Shown here one piece after another: positions 901 to 45,016 of a stretch of DNA of 64,000 bases. The DNA comes from Bacteroidota bacterium (lineage in GTDB: Bacteria > Bacteroidota > Bacteroidia > UKL13-3): contig CANNQU010000001.1 in NCBI GenBank assembly GCA_947507965.1, forward strand, positions 1 through 64,000, in the 5' to 3' direction. A program made the position numbers and the translations under genes. Position 1 is the first letter of the stretch. Each line of letters opens with the position of its first letter. The notes under the pieces are model-generated. The model made no database searches, was not told the DNA's origin, and saw only the letters and a program-made list of their open reading frames with translations.

Positions 901-3900
901 CTAACGCAGCAACATCACCGTTCCCTTGGCATGAAAAGATTGTTCACTTGCAAATTTGCCTTCCAATACCCAAACATAGGTATCCATCTGGCACGCTTTG
1001 GCGTTATACGTTCCATCCCACCCTACTTCAGGATCGGTGGTTAAAAATACCAATTCACCCCACCGGTCGTAAATACTAAATTTATAGCCTTTGGCGGTAA
1101 TGCCGTAACCCTCCGGTTTAAACACGTCATTTACTTTATTATTATCGGGTGTAAAGGCATTTGGAACATGCAATTGTCCTCCCGCAATTACGTTGATATA
1201 ATCGATGTATTGGGCCGAGTCGGAACAGCCTTTGTCGGTAAATGCGATGAGCTTCACGGTATAAAGCCCTGCGCGTGTAAAGTTAATAATAGGGTTCTTT
1301 GCCGTATCCGTTATTGTAATTCCGGCAAGTTTATTGGTAATAATCCAACGATAGGTAACCGCATGGATTGAATAATTCTTAAATGCAACATCTCCTTTGG
1401 GGAGATAGCTTACCAGCGGCCCTCCCGCGAAACTTGCGATAGGATTTTCATATACTTCAATGAAATCCGTCATCACCGTATCATCGATACCACTGATGCC
1501 GTAAGCTTTAAGCCGTACCGTGTATCTACCAGCATTCTGATAGGCATGAATAGGATTGGTTTGGAGCGACGAATTACCATCGCCAAATTCCCAGAAATAA
1601 CTAAGAGCATTGGTGCTTGTATTGGTAAAGGTTACGACAAGTGGCACGCATCCCGAGTTAACATCAACGGTAAACTTCGATACGGGCAGGTAGGGCGTAA
1701 TACGCACCCATTGAAAAGCCGAATCAGAGCAGAAACCATTCGTGACGATAAGAAGTACCTTATACGTTCCCGTGTCAAGGTATGAATGCGAATCATCTTT
1801 GTTGGTGGAGGTGGCACCATCACCGAAATTCCAGAGATAGGTTACCGCTACCGTAAAGGTACTGGTATTGGTAAAATTAACTTTTGAAGCAGGTAGTGCC
1901 TGCTGTATTGGACTTGCCGTAAAACTGGCTTGGGGCACTTCAATTGCATTAATAAGATTCACCTTTTTAATGGTATCGATGCAGCCATTGAAGCCAATGG
2001 CCACTAGCATGACCGTAAATTTCCCCGCAGCAGTATAGGTATGCGTCGGGTTTTTAATAGAGCTTGCAAAACCGTCGCCGAAATACCAGATGAGGCTGGA
2101 AGCATTCTCTGATGAATCGGTGAAATTAACCGTTAACGGCACACAACCTGAGAGTGGAGCGGCTTTGAGTTTTGCATGAACTAAAACGGGCACGATTACC
2201 ACTTTGGAAATCGTATCCTTACAGCCATAAAATGAGGTAACAATGAGCGTGGCCGTATATATTGAATCGGTAAATCGAGCCGGAACAAAATCGTGAATCG
2301 GATTTCTTGCGGTGTCGGTGGTTCCATCGCTAAACTTCCATAAATACGTAAACCCGTTGATTGAAAAATCGGTGAATTTAAATCGCGAATTACCGCAGAG
2401 CACCGGCTGTGAAAAATTGAAATTGGCTTTCGGCTTCGCATAAACGGTTATTGGATATCGCGTGGTGTCGGCACAGCCAAAGGCATTATAGGCAAGCATC
2501 ATCATCGAATATACCACAGTAACATTTAGGTTATTGGTGTAAGTATGGGTTACGCTTTTCGTGGTATCAGTATAGCCATCGCCAAAATACCATTCGTATC
2601 GTACGGCGCCGGTGGTCATATTGCTAAATTGAACATTTAATGGAGTGCATCCTGAGGCGTTGCTTACATTAACAATCCCATTCGGGTATGACTTCACTCG
2701 TATCGTTCTTCTCATCGTGTCAGTACAACCCCACTGGCTTGTACTGACCAGCGTTATCGTATAGGTAGTGTCGGTGAAAAAATAATGCACCGGATTTATT
2801 TGCGTAGAGAACGTACCATCACCAAAATTCCAAAGGAAAGAAGTGGCCGCGATGCTCATGTTTAAAAGTTGCACTCGCAGTGGGCTGCACCCCGAGTCGG
2901 GTGCCATAGCGAAGTCGGCCAGTGGCTTAGGCTTCACTTCAATAATTTTGGTCACCGTATCACCCACGCAACCGTTTGCCGAAATAGATACCATCTTAGG
3001 ATAATAGTAAACCGGTGCATACGTGGTGTTGAGATAATAATGTGTTGCATTCTTTGTCGTATCGGTGGTGCCATCACCAAAATCCCAATAATACTTTTTA
3101 CCGTTGATACTATTATTTACAAACTGAACAGGAAAATTATAACACCCGTTGGACGGGATAACAGAAAACGAATCAATGGGTTTAGGATGCACCAGCAATT
3201 GCTGTATCGAAGTATCGATACATCCATGCTCACTAGTTGCAACGAGCTTAATGCGGTAACTCGTGTCTTGTAATCGCGAACTCACAAACGCTATCGTTTC
3301 ATTTCTGTTGAGAGACGTTCTACCATTGCCGAAATCCCAATAAAATGTCATATTGTTAATACTACCGGTATCATTAGGATAAGAGGTATTGGTGAACGTA
3401 ATTACCGCCGAACTGCAGGTGGTGGTATCGCTCATTATAAAACGCGATTTAGGTTTAGGATATACCCTAATTTGCTTGGTTATCGTATCGGCACACCCGT
3501 AATTGGTAGTTGCTATTAACCTTACCTGGTAGGTGGTATCCTTGGTAATCGATGCCGCAAATACGACCGCGGTATCCTTATTAAAAGAAGTAACACCATT
3601 TCCAAAATTCCATTTAAACGACATCACGCTGATGGGTTGCCCGTTTCCATTGATGGACGTGTTAGTAAAGAAAACTTTAAACGGCCCACAGCTGTCCGCA
3701 CGACTTACGGTGAAATTGGCTTTCGCTTTGGGATGCACAGTTACCGTTTTTATGATGGTATCGGTGCAATTATGGTTGCTATAGACAATAAGTTTCACGT
3801 TGTAAAAGGTATCATTCGTATTACCTGCAATAAAAGTAACTACATTATTCGTAAGAGTGGAGACTATCCCATTTCCAAAATCCCATTTAAAAGTCATGGC

Positions 3901-6900
3901 ACTTAAGGGTAATCCATTCCCATTGATAGAGGTGTTGGTAAACGAAACGGTAAATGGGCCACAACTATCCAAACGACTTAAACTAAAATTAGCTACCGGT
4001 TTCGGATAAATGGTTATTGGCTTGATAATGGTGTCCTTGCAACTTAGAGCCGAAGTTACAATTAACCGAACATTAAAAATGGTGTCGTTCAGCGTGTTAT
4101 TTACAAAGGAATGTATCGGATTAATTGCTGTGGATGTTGCCCCATCGCCAAAGCTCCATGCCGAACTTACAGCCCCCTGGGTGTTATTTAAAAGTTGTAT
4201 TGATGCAGGCGTGCATCCGGTTAAGTTATTCGCCGTAAAATCGGCTATGGGTCTAGCCCTCACCGTTATTTGTTTTATGGTGGTATCACCATAGCAACCA
4301 TAGATACTTCTGGAAACCATTTTTACCGTATAGGTTGTGTCCAACAAATATCGGCCGGTGAAGATATGAACCGGACTTATCACCGTATCGGTTGCACCAT
4401 CCCCAAAAAACCAATAATATTTGCTTCCATTATAGGTTAGATTATTAAACGTTACCTGAAACGGACTACAACCCGATGTTGTGGAACTAAATGAATCGAT
4501 TGGATTTGGATATACCCTATATCGGCTGCGTATCGTATCCGGACACCCGTGTGAGCTATAGGCAATGAGCATAATGGTATATACGGTATCATTCCGTTTG
4601 GCAGCAGTATATGTTGTTGTTGGATGACGCAACGTACTGGTAAGTCCGTTTCCAAAATTCCAAAAGAACGTCATACCATTAATCGATCCGGTATCGCGAG
4701 GGAAGGAGGTATTGGTGAAAGCAACGGTTGCCGGCCCGCATCGGGCCGTATCTGGCTTTGTAAATTGTGCTTTCGGCATGGCATACACCGTAACCTGCTT
4801 GAACATGGTATCAGGGCATCCATAATTACTAAAAGAAATCAATCGAATATTATAAACGGTATCACGCAGTGGAGAAGCATTGAAAACCACGGCCGTGTCT
4901 TTTGCCGTAGCGGTGATGCCATTGCCAAAATTCCAGCGGAAGGTCATCACACTAATCCCAAGGCTATTTCCAGGGGTTGAAGAGTTGGTAAACTGCACAC
5001 GTAATGGACCGCAGCTATCGGCAAGCGACATACTGAAATTAGCTTTACAATTCGGGTGTACCACCAAGGTCTTGCTTATCGTATCCACACAATTATGCTT
5101 GGTATAAGCATACAGTTTCACTCTGTACGTGGTGTCCTTGGTGAGTGAAGCTAAAAACTGAACGGTGGTATCTCGCGCATTGGATACGATTCCATTGCCA
5201 AAATTCCATTGGAAGTGCATGGTGTAAATACTCTCCGTGTCGCCAGGAGAGGAAAGGTTCGTGAATCGCACCCGAAAGGGACCGCAGCTATCGGTTCTAC
5301 TTAAACTAAAATTAGCCAAAGGTTTCGGCCTAACATGAACGGGCATGATGAGCGTATCGTCGCAACCTTTGATATTATATGAAATAAGCCGAACATTATA
5401 TACCGAATCTTTCGTTGAATTATTAAAGAAGGTATGGGTAGGGTTTCGGTTGGTATCAATGGAGCTCGTATCATTGAAATACCATTTATAGGTTACAGAG
5501 CCCGAAGAGGTATTGACGAAATGCACCGTAAAAGGATTACAGCTATCCAAACTAAAAGCAGAGAAATTGGCGATAGGATCAATGAAGGTGCGTACCGATA
5601 AATTATACGTATCCTGCAAACAAAGATTGGTGTTTGCCGCAATCAAACGGATTTGCAGTAGTTTATTATCCATTTTCACCAAGGTATCGGGTAATACCGA
5701 ATTGGTTGACATGAGAATACCATTCACATACCATTGATACGTATTGCTATTGGTTGATTGATTTATAAAATGAAAACTGTAGGGAGCACATACCGCTGTA
5801 TCATTAACAGCAAATAATGCTTTAGGCTTGGGCTTTACCAAAACCGTAAGACTGGTTGAATCCATACAACCATGAATGGTATAGGCAAGAAGCTTCACGG
5901 TAAAGGTACCAAACGTAAGATATGAATGTTGTTGTGTGGCATTGCCAATGACCGTTGTATTTGCCGTTCCATCACCCCATTTCCAGATAAAGGAAGTGGC
6001 CCGTGTACTGGTATTGGTAAACACAAAAGGCTGAAACATACACTTGCTATTGGTATCAATCGTAAAGGAAGGATTAGGGAGTGTGTCAATGATAATATGT
6101 GCTGTATCGTAAGCCAAACAACCTCTGTTGGTGGTAGCCCGTAAAATTACCGTATAACTACCTGCTGCACCATAGGAGTAGGTTGTATTTTTGGTAAACA
6201 CATCGAAGCTTCCATTTCCTGTATAATCCCATGCCCATTGGGTTACCAGATCACCACCTAAAACATAAGAAGAATCAATCAGTGAAGTTATCTGTCCAAA
6301 ACAATTGGCGGATACTTTAATTTTTGCTTTCGGATTATAGCGCACCCTTACCGAATCGATATATGTCGTTGGGCATCCAAAATTATTAAATGCGGTGAGC
6401 TTTACGGCATACGTTCCGGGCGAGGCGAACGTGTGTATGGTGTCTTTTGAATTAGAGAAACTGCCGTCGCCGAAATCCCATAAATACCCGGTTATAATGG
6501 ATAGGCTAACCACACTATTGCCGAAAAATGAAATGGAACGGCCATTGCAATTATTGGGAAATGGGGTATAGGAATACGATACCGACGGCCGTTCTTTGAC
6601 AAAAACATTTTTTGTAACATTATAGGAGCATCCGCCTTGTGTAAATGCCGTTAGTGTTATTTTTTTCCAACCCGAAGTGGTGAATCTATAACTGAAATAC
6701 CTAGTAGACGAAGACCCTAACACGATATTGGTAATGGAGTCCTTATAGGAAAAAGAGACGAACGCATCATTAATTATCGCACCTATAAACTTGGTTGAGT
6801 CGGCGTTAAAATGCGTACTGTCGCCAAAGCACACGGTATCCGTACGATAATCAGCGAGCCCTACACTATGCACAATTATTACGGCCTGGTCAGAGTCGGT

Positions 6901-8580
6901 ACCACAAGTATCCGTAATTTTGAGCTTTACCGTATAGCTACCCGTATTATAGGTTTTTGCCGCAGGGTTAGCCAAAATAGATGAGGTTCCATCGCCAAAA
7001 TCCCAGAGATAATGAGCATACGGTGAGACCTTGGTGGACTGATTAAAAGCAGTTATTGTAAACGGTTCACAGCCATTTCCCAAGGGCATAATTTTCGCCT
7101 CGGGGGTTTCATAAACTTCAATGATAACCCATGCGGAAACGGTATCACAAGGGTTCGTTACCACACATCTCACCACATAAATTCCGGCACGATAAAACGT
7201 ATGAGTAACCGTTCTTGCGGTATCATATCGCGATTGTCCGTTGGAGGTGTCCGCTAAATCCCATTGTCGGCGACGAAGCAGTAAATTGGTCGTTACCGTA
7301 TCCGTAAATGTCACCGTTAATGGCTTACATCCCAATTTACTGGAAAATGTAATACCGGCGGTGGGGTTTGTTACGGCATATACATTCAGAAAAAAAGTAT
7401 CGGCTTTGCACGGATTACTGTCAATTAAAAAAACACGATACTTCCCAGGCTGGCTATAGGTATGCGTTTGGTTTGTTTTTTGAAGGATCCATCCGGTATT
7501 GGTTCCATCGCCAAAATCCCAATAGTAGAGTCGTGTACCTGGAACACAATTAAGATTGGAATTGTTTTGAAACACAAATGCATTTCCTACCTTAGGCAAA
7601 CAGGTAACCGTATCGGCTACCCCTATCTGTGCCAAGTCTTTATCATACAAAAACACCGACGACCAAGAAGCAATCGAGTTCCCACAATTATTCTTGGAGG
7701 TTAAAGTAACCGTTTTAACGCACGTACCTTGAAACGTTGCACTTTTATAAATATGATAAATGGTATCATTGAAGGTAGAGGCCCCTAAGGTATCGGCCGT
7801 GCCATCGCCCCAGTCCCAAATAAAACGAGTGCTTCCTGAAGTATTATATGAGTTGTTTACAAACCGAACTGCAAAGGGCAAACAGCCGCTATTGGTACCT
7901 ACCGGCGGACCAATAATACCGGCCGACGGGATACGTTCGTTATTCACAATTCCATTAATCGTATCGGTGCATCCTCCGGAGGTGGAAATAATTTTAATAT
8001 TGTAGCTACCTAAAGTGGAATAGGAATGATTGAAGAAAATATTCGGAGAAAATACCGTCCCCGTTGAATCAGGGGTGCCATCGCCCCAAATAATTCGGTA
8101 GCCATAAAGCGTATCTTCAACACTGAGCTGCAAGAGATACACTAAGTTAGAGCCCAACTGCGTGATGCAATTAAACCATTGAGGGGAATACGTCAACGTG
8201 AAATTTCCATCAAAAATTCGAGGCTTGTTCGTTGTCACCAATACCGACTGCGTTGTGGAATCTCTGCAGGTAGTATCGTTGGGCGATTTTGCCACCAGAC
8301 TGATGAAATAAGTTCCAGGAATATTGAAAAATCTAGACTTTGTGACCAATCCTATGGAGGAGTCGGTTAAGACGCCATTGATATACCAATAATATTTAGA
8401 GATGGCGCTATCAACCCCGGTGGAAATGTTGGACAAGGAAACGCCACGAGGTATACCACAGCTATGCGATTGAGTTATAGAAAAATTCGCGGTAACATTC
8501 GGGCAGGCTGCTTCAAGGGTGCTAAACCGAAATAAAAACAAGACAACAAATAATACGTAAAACTTATAAGATTTATGCAT
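901..8580 (-). CDS. giant PKD-repeat surface protein with T9SS type B sorting domain
   Basis: The 2559-residue product starts with a signal peptide (residues about 1-24, cleavage near LEA-A). It continues as roughly 28 PKD-like beta-sandwich repeats of about 85-95 residues, most carrying the WxFGDG or WxFGNG signature. The last ~90 residues form a gliding-motility/CHU_C-type T9SS type B domain (VPNAFTPDNNKVNDVF, then YDRWGELVF and GWDGTYN). Such proteins are exported by T9SS and act as adhesins or stalks at the cell surface; no enzymatic domain is visible. Residues about 1085-1525 and 1525-1963 are a tandem duplication of a five-domain block. It is transcribed alone from a box 29 nt upstream. 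Confidence 0.93.
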   Translation of the reverse strand: MHKSYKFYVLFVVLFLFRFSTLEAACPNVTANFSITQSHSCGIPRGVSLSNISTGVDSAISKYYWYINGVLTDSSIGLVTKSRFFNIPGTYFISLVAKSPNDTTCRDSTTQSVLVTTNKPRIFDGNFTLTYSPQWFNCITQLGSNLVYLLQLSVEDTLYGYRIIWGDGTPDSTGTVFSPNIFFNHSYSTLGSYNIKIISTSGGCTDTINGIVNNERIPSAGIIGPPVGTNSGCLPFAVRFVNNSYNTSGSTRFIWDWGDGTADTLGASTFNDTIYHIYKSATFQGTCVKTVTLTSKNNCGNSIASWSSVFLYDKDLAQIGVADTVTCLPKVGNAFVFQNNSNLNCVPGTRLYYWDFGDGTNTGWILQKTNQTHTYSQPGKYRVFLIDSNPCKADTFFLNVYAVTNPTAGITFSSKLGCKPLTVTFTDTVTTNLLLRRRQWDLADTSNGQSRYDTARTVTHTFYRAGIYVVRCVVTNPCDTVSAWVIIEVYETPEAKIMPLGNGCEPFTITAFNQSTKVSPYAHYLWDFGDGTSSILANPAAKTYNTGSYTVKLKITDTCGTDSDQAVIIVHSVGLADYRTDTVCFGDSTHFNADSTKFIGAIINDAFVSFSYKDSITNIVLGSSSTRYFSYRFTTSGWKKITLTAFTQGGCSYNVTKNVFVKERPSVSYSYTPFPNNCNGRSISFFGNSVVSLSIITGYLWDFGDGSFSNSKDTIHTFASPGTYAVKLTAFNNFGCPTTYIDSVRVRYNPKAKIKVSANCFGQITSLIDSSYVLGGDLVTQWAWDYTGNGSFDVFTKNTTYSYGAAGSYTVILRATTNRGCLAYDTAHIIIDTLPNPSFTIDTNSKCMFQPFVFTNTSTRATSFIWKWGDGTANTTVIGNATQQHSYLTFGTFTVKLLAYTIHGCMDSTSLTVLVKPKPKALFAVNDTAVCAPYSFHFINQSTNSNTYQWYVNGILMSTNSVLPDTLVKMDNKLLQIRLIAANTNLCLQDTYNLSVRTFIDPIANFSAFSLDSCNPFTVHFVNTSSGSVTYKWYFNDTSSIDTNRNPTHTFFNNSTKDSVYNVRLISYNIKGCDDTLIMPVHVRPKPLANFSLSRTDSCGPFRVRFTNLSSPGDTESIYTMHFQWNFGNGIVSNARDTTVQFLASLTKDTTYRVKLYAYTKHNCVDTISKTLVVHPNCKANFSMSLADSCGPLRVQFTNSSTPGNSLGISVMTFRWNFGNGITATAKDTAVVFNASPLRDTVYNIRLISFSNYGCPDTMFKQVTVYAMPKAQFTKPDTARCGPATVAFTNTSFPRDTGSINGMTFFWNFGNGLTSTLRHPTTTYTAAKRNDTVYTIMLIAYSSHGCPDTIRSRYRVYPNPIDSFSSTTSGCSPFQVTFNNLTYNGSKYYWFFGDGATDTVISPVHIFTGRYLLDTTYTVKMVSRSIYGCYGDTTIKQITVRARPIADFTANNLTGCTPASIQLLNNTQGAVSSAWSFGDGATSTAINPIHSFVNNTLNDTIFNVRLIVTSALSCKDTIIKPITIYPKPVANFSLSRLDSCGPFTVSFTNTSINGNGLPLSAMTFKWDFGNGIVSTLTNNVVTFIAGNTNDTFYNVKLIVYSNHNCTDTIIKTVTVHPKAKANFTVSRADSCGPFKVFFTNTSINGNGQPISVMSFKWNFGNGVTSFNKDTAVVFAASITKDTTYQVRLIATTNYGCADTITKQIRVYPKPKSRFIMSDTTTCSSAVITFTNTSYPNDTGSINNMTFYWDFGNGRTSLNRNETIAFVSSRLQDTSYRIKLVATSEHGCIDTSIQQLLVHPKPIDSFSVIPSNGCYNFPVQFVNNSINGKKYYWDFGDGTTDTTKNATHYYLNTTYAPVYYYPKMVSISANGCVGDTVTKIIEVKPKPLADFAMAPDSGCSPLRVQLLNMSIAATSFLWNFGDGTFSTQINPVHYFFTDTTYTITLVSTSQWGCTDTMRRTIRVKSYPNGIVNVSNASGCTPLNVQFSNMTTGAVRYEWYFGDGYTDTTKSVTHTYTNNLNVTVVYSMMMLAYNAFGCADTTRYPITVYAKPKANFNFSQPVLCGNSRFKFTDFSINGFTYLWKFSDGTTDTARNPIHDFVPARFTDSIYTATLIVTSFYGCKDTISKVVIVPVLVHAKLKAAPLSGCVPLTVNFTDSSENASSLIWYFGDGFASSIKNPTHTYTAAGKFTVMLVAIGFNGCIDTIKKVNLINAIEVPQASFTASPIQQALPASKVNFTNTSTFTVAVTYLWNFGDGATSTNKDDSHSYLDTGTYKVLLIVTNGFCSDSAFQWVRITPYLPVSKFTVDVNSGCVPLVVTFTNTSTNALSYFWEFGDGNSSLQTNPIHAYQNAGRYTVRLKAYGISGIDDTVMTDFIEVYENPIASFAGGPLVSYLPKGDVAFKNYSIHAVTYRWIITNKLAGITITDTAKNPIINFTRAGLYTVKLIAFTDKGCSDSAQYIDYINVIAGGQLHVPNAFTPDNNKVNDVFKPEGYGITAKGYKFSIYDRWGELVFLTTDPEVGWDGTYNAKACQMDTYVWVLEGKFASEQSFHAKGTVMLLR

Positions 8581-38727: not shown

Positions 38728-38940
38728 TCACTTTACCTTTTTTAAAGCCATACTGCATTCCGTACACTTACTCCCTTTGGTGTTGCTTACTACGTTGGGG
38801 TGCATCGGACATTGGTACACTTCCTGATGCGTACTGTCGATAACAGGCGTGTTTGTTGTGTCTGGCTTTACCGGGGCAGTACCACAGGATATCACCAAAG
38901 AAAAGACACTAATTAAAATTGAAATTTGTATGCGATTCAT
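38728..38940 (-). CDS. heavy-metal-binding-domain lipoprotein
   Basis: A 70-residue lipoprotein: the signal ends in the lipobox LVISCG (Cys at about residue 19), followed by a proline/threonine linker and a heavy-metal-binding domain of the YxCPMHPxV type (YQCPMHPNVVS, then SKCTECSMALKKVK). The Cys/His/Met set suits soft metals such as copper. It starts 11 bp after the TonB receptor, so it is the last gene of that operon. It probably chelates metal in the periplasm or at the outer membrane. Confidence 0.87.
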   Translation of the reverse strand: MNRIQISILISVFSLVISCGTAPVKPDTTNTPVIDSTHQEVYQCPMHPNVVSNTKGSKCTECSMALKKVK

Positions 38941-38951
38941 CTGAAAAAATA

Positions 38952-41525
38952 TTAATCTGTTTTAAATCTTAGTCCTATATAAATGGTTCGGCCATTCACA
39001 GGGCCCCATATCATTGAACCATCAAAATATGGACTGAATGGTTGAGAAGCAGAGATAATTAAATTATTTTGAGTGTAGTTGGTCATGTTTTCAACACCAA
39101 GATAAACATCCCATTTGTGATTGAAAATTTTCGATACTTGCCCGTTCATCTGCATATATGACGGGGAGTAATTTTGAACTTGATATTCAACAGGATTACT
39201 ACTCGAATTAGGTAACCTTTTTCTGCCTATCCACTGCATCGTAAAATCAAATTTCCAATGGCTTTTAGCTTCGTACCCAAAATTAATAAATGCCCTATGT
39301 TTTGCCATCAATGGCTTATCTAAAACCACCCCACTATAATTTGTTTGAACATCAAGCCAACGATAAGCCAGACGCATGTTTAAGTTCCTAATCAGCTCAT
39401 AATTCACTTCGGCCTGAATGCTGTTGGAAAATGAGTTTCCATGTAGATTATAAAACAGAACTTGCTGTGGATTAGCATCTACGTCAACCACCACCTGACT
39501 GCTAAACTTGGTTTGATACGCATCGATTGAAATAGAACCCGCTTGGCTATTTATTTTAAATTGATGAATCAAATTAAATCCGTAATTCCAAGCTTTTTCA
39601 GGGTTTAATCCATAGCCAAAGGTTGAAGTCGGTGTCAATATATGATACTGTCTTGAACTCACGAATACACCTATATTCTCAGCAAAAACATTCGCCACAC
39701 GAAAGCCCGACCCTGCCGAAAACCTAACATTCGTTGTAGGGGATATATCATACTTTAAATGCAATCGTGGAGTGGTTTTAAACCCATAGAAACTATGATA
39801 ATCCAAACGCAGCCCAATAATTGCTGTAAAGTTTATTACGGGCGTATATGTATATTCAAAAAAAGCACCCGGAACCATTTCCTGACGCTTGAAATTTAAG
39901 CTATCAAACGTTTCATTATAATCCTCTTTTACAAAACTTAACCCCGTCCGATATTTGTGTATGGTAGTTATGATCTTCGACTGAAATATTAGATTGGCAT
40001 AAATCGACTTTTGGTCAGCATCGTATTTATTTAATCCATAATATGCATTATTGGTATAGCTATTGGCCGAAAAAATAATTCCAATGCTTTTAAATGGCTT
40101 TTCGGGAAAAACATAACCTAACTTTCCTGAAAACGCATACTGTTCTAAATTGATACCAACACCATACTTATTCCGAGTGAGCTTATCTTTTAGCGGATCA
40201 AAGCCTACTTCTCCTGCCTCTCGTTTGTCGCTCAGTGCTTTGATGGAGAACTGTGCAATAACGCCTTTATCATTCACGTATTTCCAACGGTTCAAAAAAT
40301 TATAATGCCTTCCCAATGGATTATCTAAGAATCCATCCTTATTCTCATCGCTTTTTAAAATCATACCATTTACATTGGTTAACAAGGCGGTGCTCCAATA
40401 ATGATTGATTTGTTTTGAAAGATTAATACTCGTTTCCAGCCGGCCCATATTGTTGGCATAGCTATTTAAAAAAATACGATCCATTTTATCGGGTTTCTTC
40501 TCTTCAATATTTATTTGACCGGCGATACTCTCATATCCATTGGCCACCGACCCTGTTCCTTTGGTAACTTGAATTGCATCGATCCATGGCCCCGGTATAA
40601 AGGTGAGACCATAACTTCCGGGTAGCCCTTTTATCTCTGGTATGTTCTCCGTTGTTATTTGGGTGTAAATACCCGATAGGCCGAGCAGTTGAATTTGCTT
40701 AATACCTGTAACCGCATCCGAATAACTCACATCAACGGAAGGACTCGTTTCAAAACTTTCAGAAAGATTACAACAAGCCGCCTTCGTGAGTTCTTCGGAG
40801 CCAATATTCAGGGTGTTTAACGTATTTAGTGACGATACATAGCTGGATTGGACATTCGCATCTACTTCAACTTCTGATAAAGTAATAGACGACGACTTTT
40901 GAAGAACGATCTTGACGCTATGGTACGTTGACACGGTAATGGTATCGGCTGGGTAGCCTAAATAACTAACAACTAAAGTGGCTGGAATTACACTAAAAAG
41001 CTGGAAAAAACCGATACTGTCGGCATAAACTGCATTGTTCGTATTTATAACTCGCACCAATGCACCATAAACAGGAGTTTGTTTACCCTTCCCATCTGCC
41101 TCGAAAATGAATCCTTTTATTGGCTTATTTTTTTCCTTTTCTTCCTCCATTTTTATTGGCGTTTCTTCCTTCCTCATACCGGGCTTCTCATACCTCTCGT
41201 AATGACAGCAGGCTGGAAGCTTTAAATAGGTTCGTTCATCCGATTGGAAACTTTTGGTATCGTGTCCTACCGAGGCAAGTTTCTGTTCGATTTTCAATCT
41301 CGAAAGTTTTACGCTATCGTAACGAACGATTAATATTTTTGTTTCAATGTCCCAATTGGCCGTATAGGTACCATATTTAGACAATGCATTTTCAATCCTG
41401 CTTTTGCATTGTTCACAGGCTCCATAAACGATGATGGTATCGGTCTTGAGATTTCGCTTCTGAGCTAAGCCCTCCTTGCCAACAGCAAAAAATAGGCATA
41501 CTATAAAATATTTTATAAAATTCAT
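38952..41525 (-). CDS. TonB-dependent receptor with fused N-terminal HMA domain
   Basis: The 857-residue protein has a signal peptide (to about residue 22). Next comes a heavy-metal-associated (HMA/CopZ-like) domain at about 28-95 with the CxxC metal site at Cys37/Cys40 (GACEQCKSRIENAL) and a Cys106-Cys107-His108 cluster. A carboxypeptidase-like regulatory domain follows at about 133-215 (IKGFIFEADGKGKQT). The plug (about 240-345) carries the typical KAACCNLSESFETSPSVDVS and the rest is the outer-membrane beta-barrel, ending in aromatic GRTIYIGLRFKTD. TonB receptors import ligands; this one is likely for a metal complex, copper being my best guess. It shares an operon with a HYC_CC_PP protein and a metal lipoprotein. 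Confidence 0.93.
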   Translation of the reverse strand: MNFIKYFIVCLFFAVGKEGLAQKRNLKTDTIIVYGACEQCKSRIENALSKYGTYTANWDIETKILIVRYDSVKLSRLKIEQKLASVGHDTKSFQSDERTYLKLPACCHYERYEKPGMRKEETPIKMEEEKEKNKPIKGFIFEADGKGKQTPVYGALVRVINTNNAVYADSIGFFQLFSVIPATLVVSYLGYPADTITVSTYHSVKIVLQKSSSITLSEVEVDANVQSSYVSSLNTLNTLNIGSEELTKAACCNLSESFETSPSVDVSYSDAVTGIKQIQLLGLSGIYTQITTENIPEIKGLPGSYGLTFIPGPWIDAIQVTKGTGSVANGYESIAGQINIEEKKPDKMDRIFLNSYANNMGRLETSINLSKQINHYWSTALLTNVNGMILKSDENKDGFLDNPLGRHYNFLNRWKYVNDKGVIAQFSIKALSDKREAGEVGFDPLKDKLTRNKYGVGINLEQYAFSGKLGYVFPEKPFKSIGIIFSANSYTNNAYYGLNKYDADQKSIYANLIFQSKIITTIHKYRTGLSFVKEDYNETFDSLNFKRQEMVPGAFFEYTYTPVINFTAIIGLRLDYHSFYGFKTTPRLHLKYDISPTTNVRFSAGSGFRVANVFAENIGVFVSSRQYHILTPTSTFGYGLNPEKAWNYGFNLIHQFKINSQAGSISIDAYQTKFSSQVVVDVDANPQQVLFYNLHGNSFSNSIQAEVNYELIRNLNMRLAYRWLDVQTNYSGVVLDKPLMAKHRAFINFGYEAKSHWKFDFTMQWIGRKRLPNSSSNPVEYQVQNYSPSYMQMNGQVSKIFNHKWDVYLGVENMTNYTQNNLIISASQPFSPYFDGSMIWGPVNGRTIYIGLRFKTD

Positions 41526-41709: not shown

Positions 41710-42102
41710 TCAAATCCGAATGGAACGATGAAGAAGATATAATGTGGGGGAGGCTTCTGGGGGAGGATCTGTTCTAAATCCTTGAATTGCAGCAAGCCCT
41801 GTTTTAGCATTAAAAGAGCCACCTGACCAATGCGGCAGAACGCAGCACGTTATTAAATTATGCACTACTACAGGCCGGCCATTGGTTTTATCGTGAACGT
41901 CAGCCTTTATATTTAAGCTGTCCGTCTTACAACATTTAGAGTCGACAGATTCTTCCTCCTCTATGCATTCACATTCTGTATTAAGATCAACACCAAAGAT
42001 TTTATACGACACGATATCATTACACGTATGGATTAACATACTGAACCCAACCACTGAAAATAAGTGAGATGAAATTAAAAGTAAAACAAGTCCCTTTTTC
42101 AT
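41710..42102 (-). CDS. HYC_CC_PP family protein
   Basis: The 130-residue protein has a signal peptide (MKKGLVLLLISSHLFS), the HxC start (LIHTC), a central SKCCKTD cysteine pair and a C-terminal DPPPEASPTLYLLHR. These match the HYC_CC_PP family found with metal TonB receptors in Bacteroidota. I start it at MKKGLV (42102); the frame extends to 42147. The Cys/His content suggests periplasmic metal binding. It is first in the operon with the HMA-TonB receptor and the small metal-binding lipoprotein. Confidence 0.8.
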   Translation of the reverse strand: MKKGLVLLLISSHLFSVVGFSMLIHTCNDIVSYKIFGVDLNTECECIEEEESVDSKCCKTDSLNIKADVHDKTNGRPVVVHNLITCCVLPHWSGGSFNAKTGLAAIQGFRTDPPPEASPTLYLLHRSIRI

Positions 42103-42772: not shown

Positions 42773-45016
42773 ATGAAACGAATTTCAATTATCTTCTGTA
42801 CTCTCTTTTTACTTTTTGGCTTTACTGCCCATGCCGTAACCAAACGTGCACTATTTATGGCCATCGACACCTATAAACCCGATGGTGTAGAAAATACCGG
42901 TTCGCGCACCTGGACCAATTTAGAGGGCTGTGTTAATGATGCCGAACAGGTAAAAGCATTGGTAGCTGCAAAATATGGGTTTACCGATAACAAATACATC
43001 ACTTTTATAAAAAATCAGGAATGCACTCGTGCACGAATTCTTGCTGAACTAAATAAACTAATCGACCAATCTCAAAGCGGAGATATCGTCTTTATTTATT
43101 ACGCCGGGCATGGATCACAAGTTTATAATAGCTTAAGTGATGAAGCGGATAAAATGGATGAAACCATGGTACCCGCCGATATTTGGAAAGGGGCGAAAGA
43201 TATTCGGGATAAAGAATTAGCGGCTTTATTTAACAAACTGGTTGAAAAAGGTGTAACCCTGACCGTTGTTTACGATAGCTGCCATAGTGGCTCGGTAGGC
43301 AGAGGCGCAATGACAAATAAACCGGCCAAAGAACGTAAAATTGAAAATGATATGGAAGACGCCAAAGATGCCACACGCATTGACGTTGCACCAGAAGATA
43401 AAGGTGCCTTAATATTTAGCGCAGCTCAGGACGTAGAATGTGCAAGTGAACAAAGAGATGAATTTGATATCCCCCACGGTGCTTTTACCATCGCGTTTTG
43501 CAAGGCCTTACAAACCTTGCCTGCTACCGCTAGCGCAACTGAAATATTTACCAGTGTGCGCGCTATCATGAAATACAATGGGAAAACACAAGAACCTGTA
43601 TTGGCAGGCAACGATGCCCGTAAAGCAAATACATTATTTGGTATTGACCGTGGTTTGTTACCTAAAATGACCTTGATTGCCGTTACAACTCCTGAAAGTT
43701 CTTCGGTTGTAACACTGCAAGGAGGTACCGCAATTGGTTTATCGGTAAACTGTGTATTAACCAATACCGACAAAACAGTTGAATTGACCGTAACAGAAGT
43801 TAATAGTATGACTAAAAGTACGGCTAAAGTAACAAAAGGCGACGTTAAAAACATTAAACCAGGCGACTTATATAATGTTACGCAATGGGTGGTTGCCGAA
43901 AATGCCCTAACCGTTTATATTCCGAATTGCAATTTATCTTATGCTCAGGTTAAAACTGCCGGAGAGGAATTCTTTAAATTAAAAACGGATTCTAAAATTG
44001 AATGGGTTATCGATCCATCCAAGGTAAGTGCTACGCATACTATTTTCTATAACGATGGCGTTTGGTATGTGGGTACGCCTGATAATAAAATACATGCCAT
44101 TGGGGCCAACCCTAAAATGAGTGATGCGAAAAAATTCATCTCTGGCGACGGCATAAAATTATATGTAAGCCTTCCACCTTATGCCGGTTTAAGAGCTGAA
44201 ATTGAAAAACAATATAAAGACAATACTTCTGTAAAGATTGTTTCTACACCAGCCAATGCAAATTATTGCTTTACCGGTAGGGTATATGAAAATGAAGTGC
44301 AATACGCCTTTATCATGCCGGGCATCAACGCAAGCGATAGCGCCTATTTAAGCACCATGCCCATTCGCACCGATTTCATTCAGATGAATGGGAATAACGA
44401 TGCACGTTCCATCGATACTTTAGCCGATTATACCTTTAGGTTGGCAAAGATAAAAATTTGGTTAGCCTTAAACGGCCCAGCTGACGGAGTTAGTAATTTT
44501 CCTTTTTACCTGGCACTGAAAAATTCGAAAACAAATGAAATTGTTACTGCCGGAAATGTTGTAGATGGAGAAACCTATGGATTGGTATTGGTTGCCGATA
44601 AAGCTAATATTTACAATTGGGATGGAACTAAACGTTATGTTTATGTGTTCTCGGTAAATGCCGATGGAAGCACAAAATTATTTTATGGCGGCAAAGGAGT
44701 TGAAAATAAAATGCCCCGATTAAACGAAAATAATGAAGTGCCTGATTATATTCCATTGGGCCGGCAGCCATTGTTTAAAGTAACCGCTCCTTATGGTGTT
44801 GACACCTATATTATATTAACTACGGATGAACCCATTACAAGTCCCGAATTATTGGAAGGCCAAGGGGTAAGGAGCAGCGATATGACGGCAGCAAGAGGCG
44901 AAAAAACATGGACAGATATGTTTCAGAATGCCGGTTCGGGTGCTCGTGGTGCAGGTGATATCGCGCCAACCAACTGGAGTGTCGTTAGGGTGAGTGTACG
45001 AAGCGTTTCTAAATAA
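42773..45016 (+). CDS. secreted caspase-like (metacaspase, C14) protein
   Basis: The 747-residue protein has a signal peptide (about residues 1-21) and a caspase-fold peptidase domain at about 24-295. The catalytic His113 lies in IYYAGHGSQVYN and the catalytic Cys170 in VVYDSCHSGSVGRG; the N-terminal strand is KRALFMAIDTY. Metacaspases cleave after Arg/Lys. The C-terminal half is a beta-rich region with no named catalytic domain, ending in a DUF4384-like segment (FKVTAPYGVDTYIILTTDEPI). It lacks a recognisable T9SS tail. It follows the small secreted protein after 78 bp. Extracytoplasmic protease is the best reading. Confidence 0.9.
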   Translation: MKRISIIFCTLFLLFGFTAHAVTKRALFMAIDTYKPDGVENTGSRTWTNLEGCVNDAEQVKALVAAKYGFTDNKYITFIKNQECTRARILAELNKLIDQSQSGDIVFIYYAGHGSQVYNSLSDEADKMDETMVPADIWKGAKDIRDKELAALFNKLVEKGVTLTVVYDSCHSGSVGRGAMTNKPAKERKIENDMEDAKDATRIDVAPEDKGALIFSAAQDVECASEQRDEFDIPHGAFTIAFCKALQTLPATASATEIFTSVRAIMKYNGKTQEPVLAGNDARKANTLFGIDRGLLPKMTLIAVTTPESSSVVTLQGGTAIGLSVNCVLTNTDKTVELTVTEVNSMTKSTAKVTKGDVKNIKPGDLYNVTQWVVAENALTVYIPNCNLSYAQVKTAGEEFFKLKTDSKIEWVIDPSKVSATHTIFYNDGVWYVGTPDNKIHAIGANPKMSDAKKFISGDGIKLYVSLPPYAGLRAEIEKQYKDNTSVKIVSTPANANYCFTGRVYENEVQYAFIMPGINASDSAYLSTMPIRTDFIQMNGNNDARSIDTLADYTFRLAKIKIWLALNGPADGVSNFPFYLALKNSKTNEIVTAGNVVDGETYGLVLVADKANIYNWDGTKRYVYVFSVNADGSTKLFYGGKGVENKMPRLNENNEVPDYIPLGRQPLFKVTAPYGVDTYIILTTDEPITSPELLEGQGVRSSDMTAARGEKTWTDMFQNAGSGARGAGDIAPTNWSVVRVSVRSVSK

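Follow-up and report, generated by a model that had tools for sequence, protein, structure and literature searches.

The gene at 38952-41525 on the minus strand of the 64,000-nucleotide stretch of Bacteroidota DNA analysed here (the window) encodes an 857-amino-acid protein that is a genuine and well-conserved domain fusion of parts of known kinds: a heavy-metal-associated (HMA) domain, of a subtype that we name HMA-CC, precedes a TonB-dependent receptor. We suggest that the protein is probably a copper-uptake receptor with an N-terminally tethered periplasmic metallochaperone, which would take Cu(I) from the plug. The gene, its parts and its two immediate neighbours are:

38952-41525, minus strand: HMA-CC::TonB-dependent receptor fusion gene, 857 amino acids (open frame and Pfam)
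41463-41525, minus strand: signal peptide, residues 1-21 (sequence; A21 and Q22 conserved)
41250-41450, minus strand: HMA fold, residues 26-92 (Pfam, family profile, AlphaFold2 model)
41406-41417, minus strand: metal motif C37-E-Q-C40 (conservation across HMA copies)
41205-41210, minus strand: C-terminal dicysteine C106-C107 of HMA-CC, in LPACCHYER (conservation)
41124-41183, minus strand: charged flexible linker, residues 115-134 (low pLDDT)
40863-41087, minus strand: CarbopepD_reg_2, residues 147-221 (Pfam)
40518-40808, minus strand: TonB plug, residues 240-336 (Pfam)
40770-40775, minus strand: plug dicysteine C251-C252, in KAACCNLSESFE (conservation)
39087-40265, minus strand: TonB-dependent receptor beta-barrel, residues 421-813 (Pfam; PDB matches of the model)
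41710-42102, minus strand: HYC_CC_PP-like small secreted cysteine protein, directly upstream (20.0 bits, cut-off 28)
38728-38940, minus strand: HMBD (PF19335) probable lipoprotein, directly downstream (Pfam, 42.9 bits, cut-off 23.6)

The fusion gene is a single open frame of 857 codons with an ATG start and no internal stop. Pfam places HMA (residues 37-87), CarbopepD_reg_2 (147-221), Plug (240-336) and TonB barrel (421-813) in that order, and the receptor assignment scores 24.5 bits for the plug (cut-off 23.9) and 87.1 bits for the barrel (cut-off 27). The mature protein has six cysteines, all of them paired (CxxC 37/40, CC 106/107 and CC 251/252), and G+C is 0.385 in the HMA part and 0.380 in the receptor part. 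The signal peptide ends in AQ (A21, Q22) in all 21 fused copies that have an N-terminus, so the HMA domain should face the periplasm after cleavage, where a first, sequence-only reading of this DNA had placed it. The linker is modelled with low confidence (pLDDT below 50 at mature residues 94-110 of the AlphaFold2 model); elsewhere a His-rich repeat serves as linker (G096; fused receptor L182:3394-6096, with an HEGHDHD repeat). A frameshift or chimeric contig was rejected, as the fused frame occurs in four of five genomes of the window's genus and in many other genomes.

The N-terminal domain had been called HMA from its motifs, and the profile search proposed as a check gave a divided answer. 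The single sequence fell short of the Pfam HMA (PF00403) cut-off of 24.8 bits, a statistical threshold and not a biological feature (19.4 bits for the whole protein, 23.0 for the first 115 residues, 23.9 in the genome search), but homologous domains exceeded it (38.7 and 31.8 bits) and a family profile, A1, built from 55 related domains matched HMA proteins throughout the PDB: 32 distinct sequences at E 1.7e-22 to 6.6e-4, named as metal-transporting ATPases, copper chaperones and MerP, the best being Copper-transporting ATPase 2 (E 1.7e-22) and B. subtilis CopA (E 1.1e-19). The AlphaFold2 model of the domain from the family alignment (pLDDT 91.5) has the beta-alpha-beta-beta-alpha ferredoxin-like fold, its top Foldseek match is CopZ (6ff2, E 3.7e-5), and VIA-align pairs it with CopZ 2qif at Z 10.8 and rmsd 1.0 for 67 residues. 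The CxxC metal motif occupies the first loop as Cys37 and Cys40, just where the sequence-only reading had it, and is conserved. We conclude that the profile and the predicted fold overrule the sub-threshold Pfam score, and that on this basis the domain is HMA, as proposed; a chance CxxC match was rejected on fold, profile and conservation over 92 copies. The accompanying statement that HMA domains are normally cytoplasmic chaperones or parts of P-type ATPases was too narrow, as MerP is a periplasmic HMA protein. Signal-peptide-bearing CopZ-like HMA proteins are known too (PMC11213822).

We compared 92 HMA copies drawn from 96 receptor loci, a set in which some genomes are represented more than once. 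Cys37 is conserved in 91 copies and Cys40 in 90 (one copy being incomplete), and Cys106-Cys107, Tyr100 and Gly87 are each present in all 92. The CCH cluster noted earlier at 106-108 is thus present with its CC invariant, but His108 is not among the conserved columns. Judged by this conservation, the combination of HMA fold and C-terminal dicysteine is a distinct HMA subtype, HMA-CC.

Such a domain might instead sense metal and report its status to a partner in the inner membrane, FpvA-style. The signalling domain of transducers shares its N-terminal periplasmic position, but we regard a sensor as very improbable: the domain has an HMA fold in the model, it also exists as a free secreted protein, and no anti-sigma gene stood out when the surrounding ORFs were inspected. 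An STN-type signalling domain, whose fold differs from that of HMA, was rejected because the fold found is HMA.

The fusion is not confined to the window gene. Among the matches listed, receptor similarity in many relatives starts at about residue 131, and an adjoining short frame matches residues 5-115; this short HMA-CC frame beside the receptor indicates that the window gene joins an HMA-CC gene and a receptor gene. The comparison with separate-HMA loci that had been recommended agrees: such loci occur frequently, and the window gene corresponds to the same pair in fused form. The search for relatives covered 97 genomes, at least 93 of them with a match, and 98 loci were resolved for HMA-CC arrangement. 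All of the 29 best relatives (L004-L032) except L026, hence 28 loci, carry HMA-CC in the stretch examined, either fused or as its own gene on the receptor's strand. By arrangement, the 92 HMA-CC copies comprise 22 fused, 25 upstream and 45 downstream of the receptor. The 99 receptors placed in a tree include 20 with HMA-CC upstream, 42 downstream, 29 fused and 8 with none, a fused share that is inflated by the choice of loci and is not a frequency: loci were selected for their similarity to the window gene, and twelve fused ones (L182, L185-L195) were fetched for their long frames. The downstream arrangement is that of Flavobacteriaceae and some other tree rows. Five receptors of Ignavibacteria/Kapabacteria type have no HMA-CC in the stretch examined, and the plug CC is intact in the four that are readable.

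Fused genes are scattered across the phylum. Of 64 genomes from the window's family, four have the fused frame, all from the window's genus, one of these frames ending at a contig end; in the remaining family members with a match the two frames are separate. When 395 genomes were sampled evenly across the phylum, at least 137 gave an HMA-CC match (E 0.001), and besides the window at least 12 of the 395 genomes had HMA-CC in a frame of at least 780 amino acids. All 12 of these long frames hold HMA-CC and a receptor, and they fall into families f40 (two), f35 (two) and f21 (eight). HMA-CC is doubled in tandem in seven of the eight f21 receptors (L188-L192, L194, L195), and the tandem receptor L188 is without a CarbopepD_reg match in Pfam. 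Overall the fused forms occur in Chitinophagaceae-type bacteria, the window's genus included, and in three further families, and the named fused loci are mostly Chitinophagaceae MAGs. A plasmid search returned five records: one carries no annotation and the others are labelled TonB-dependent receptor or hypothetical protein. The literature searched, which lay mostly outside subscription journals, holds no description of an HMA-TonB fusion, of the HMA-CC subtype or of the plug CC.

The tree was built from plug and barrel columns only, leaving out L058 and L063 (apparently the same genomes as G003 and G001), L029 (the L182 gene), L002, L003 and rows shorter than 600 amino acids; a second tree of 64 rows, from which further near-copies were dropped, used a mixture model. 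The fused label needs three changes in both trees, two of them forced by starred branches. In AU tests a single fused clade was not rejected (p 0.23), nor was a group of the Chitinophagaceae-type and f35/f40 receptors alone (p 0.43). Our claim is accordingly that the fused form recurs in several clades, and it extends to no particular number of fusion events. The receptor of the window's genus branches within the fused clade of Chitinophagaceae type, and the AU test rejected a tree uniting it with ten receptors of its own family whose HMA-CC gene is separate (p 2.8e-8). This placement away from its own family fits horizontal transfer or an old duplication.

Joining the two genes may be near-neutral, with the proteins working as the separate genes do and the fusion fixing only their ratio and place, without a special hand-over at the plug. 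Separate genes are indeed usual (20 upstream and 42 downstream against 29 fused among the 99 tree rows, even with the fused share inflated), and seven fused loci keep a separate HMA-CC gene nearby (L035, L036, L038, L044, L049, L187, L193). We nevertheless think near-neutrality somewhat unlikely, as the fused frame persists in diverged members of several families, which retain every cysteine and have linkers, and one family has duplicated the HMA domain.

The receptor part has only two cysteines, C251 and C252. Each cysteine of this plug CC is kept in 91 of 92 letters, and [AS]ACC occurs in 97 of the 99 tree rows, including the Ignavibacteria receptors without HMA-CC in the stretch examined. 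The pair lies about 30 residues after LSEVEV, which by analogy we take to be Ton-box-like, and before NLSESF; the plug start in solved receptors lies towards the periplasm. None of 20 paralogous receptors from the relatives has a CC in residues 61-330, and none has an HMA-CC frame in the stretch. The solved receptor nearest by sequence, 9gbc, is without CC at this plug position, and the CxxxM of OprC is absent here, S255 and E256 standing at +4 from C251 and C252. Another plug cysteine motif, C-x-V-C (for example NCNVCNTGDIHINGMEGPYT), occurs in 15 of the 20 paralogous receptors (L202-L216) and is perhaps metal-related.

The gene neighbourhood is shared among relatives. Of 67 loci, 57 (the window among them) have a HYC_CC_PP-type ORF upstream on the receptor strand; the window copy scores 20.0 bits against the cut-off of 28 for HYC_CC_PP (NF047658), and the ORFs at this position in two relatives reach 70.0 and 52.3. 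The Flavobacteriaceae receptors are preceded by a membrane protein of HMA-MauE type (28 of 34 cluster members by inspection, two tested with Pfam), and at the fused locus L046 an HMA-MauE gene is directly downstream. Elsewhere in the window are a 747-amino-acid secreted protein with a caspase (Peptidase_C14) domain at 42773-45016 and a 2559-amino-acid protein with repeated PKD domains and a type IX secretion (CHU_C) end at 901-8580.

Away from the receptor, some CusB-type RND adaptors have an HMBD at the N-terminus and HMA-CC at the C-terminus (L183, L196, L199, L201), one such adaptor belonging to the window's genus (G002); CxxC and CC are kept in all four adaptors fetched, two of which were run against Pfam/NCBIfam. 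An HMA-CC gene precedes a CusA-type gene in G004 of the same genus, HMA-CC adjoins CusA/CzcA-type RND pumps in G004 and G064, and the G365 cluster also contains a copper-type P1B ATPase, which scores above its cut-off. HMA-CC in CusB-type adaptors and beside CusA-type pumps makes Cu(I)/Ag(I) the likeliest metal, and from this gene company we consider copper or silver to be the metal likely handled. It is unlikely in our estimation that the imported substrate is a different soft or divalent metal, or a metal chelate (Zn, Hg, Ag or a chalkophore): the fold and profile searches also matched MerP and the zinc ATPase ZiaA, HMA domains of MerP and zinc ATPases score near CopZ, and an HMA domain alone leaves the metal unfixed, but the recurrent company of HMA-CC (CusA/CzcA-type RND, CusB-type adaptor, copper-type P1B ATPase) is of copper type. 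The same membership of Cus-type efflux adaptors would suit copper protection, in which the domain would act as a periplasmic copper buffer close to the outer membrane and the receptor would serve detoxification or sensing more than nutrition; we hold this to be quite improbable, since TonB receptors with known substrates import them. HMA-CC also occurs N-terminal to DUF3347 in secreted proteins of 282-310 amino acids near copper genes (L184:1869-2750, L196:10452-11300, L200:2319-3251), an architecture shown by Pfam for L196.

We therefore return to a copper-uptake receptor with a tethered chaperone. Five observations point to it: the HMA fold is nearest to Cu(I) chaperones; HMA-CC is fused, or encoded on the same strand within the stretch examined, in all but one of the 29 best relatives; the plug CC is invariant here and absent from all 20 paralogs, whose fetched stretches likewise lack an HMA-CC gene; HMA-CC keeps company with CusB-type adaptors, CusA/CzcA-type pumps and a P1B ATPase; and TccA with PccA provides a precedent (PMC12617631). 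Against it, the MerP and ZiaA matches would also suit Hg or Zn, the five Ignavibacteria/Kapabacteria-type receptors are without HMA-CC in the stretch examined, CxxxM is absent at the plug CC, and most relatives are unfused. We infer copper as the metal, import as the direction, the hand-over and a benefit of tethering. Copper would enter through the barrel upon remodelling of the plug by TonB and then pass the dicysteine at the plug start; the HMA CxxC, with the conserved CC, would take the metal as Cu(I), and the domain might swing on its linker and deliver it to further periplasmic partners. Guessing from gene order, these partners may be the adjoining HYC_CC_PP-like and HMBD proteins and, in Flavobacteriaceae, also HMA-MauE. 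The plug-to-HMA transfer is a putative step through a poorly modelled plug (pLDDT about 35 in the full-length model, in which the docking of HMA on the plug is not readable). As for the origin of the gene, an HMA-CC gene became joined to the receptor gene lying after it, an order seen in relatives.

More tentatively, HMA-CC is possibly a plug-in copper-exit module of Bacteroidota, tethered both to an importing receptor, with the plug dicysteine as gate, and to an exporting CusB-type adaptor, and fused in several lineages, even in tandem. If so, both copper routes across the outer membrane share a single kind of chaperone. Gene fusion points at physical partners, and here it names HMA-CC, with the plug CC suggesting the exit site; a large group of Bacteroidota receptors is thereby marked as probable copper importers, and the plug-to-chaperone step becomes testable by point mutants in a cultivable member.

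Parts of this arrangement have counterparts in known systems. OprC and NosA, which rank within the top 50 PDB matches to the full-length model, are likewise TonB barrels of the outer membrane with a cysteine in the plug; the OprC copper site combines plug Cys143 and Met147 with the barrel wall (PMC8610252), and this CxxxM-HxM site is reached from outside, in contrast to the CC at the plug start and the fused HMA of the window protein. MerP/CopZ-type proteins, including the signal-peptide-bearing CopZ-like BaCopZP1-3 of Bizionia (Flavobacteriaceae), resemble the window domain in HMA fold, CxxC and signal peptide (PMC11213822), whereas the window domain has a C-terminal CC after the fold and is covalently joined to a receptor. 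CrtA proteins, TonB copper importers mostly of beta- and gamma-Proteobacteria with a PepSY_TM partner, match the role proposed here, but are without conserved Cys or Met (PMC12914433).

The acceptor of metal ions on the periplasmic side of TonB receptors is hardly known. SilB-type adaptors have a C-terminal CusF-like metallochaperone domain, and so share with the window protein a metallochaperone covalently joined to a transport component; they differ in that the chaperone fold is another one and the component is an efflux adaptor, not a receptor. The chaperones PccA and PcuC also have a fold different from HMA. TccA is a copper TonB receptor that works with the periplasmic chaperone PccA, and PcuB and PcuC deliver copper, as cited in the same source (PMC12617631). 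Both pairs combine a copper TonB receptor with a periplasmic chaperone, as separate proteins there and as a single fused protein in the window.
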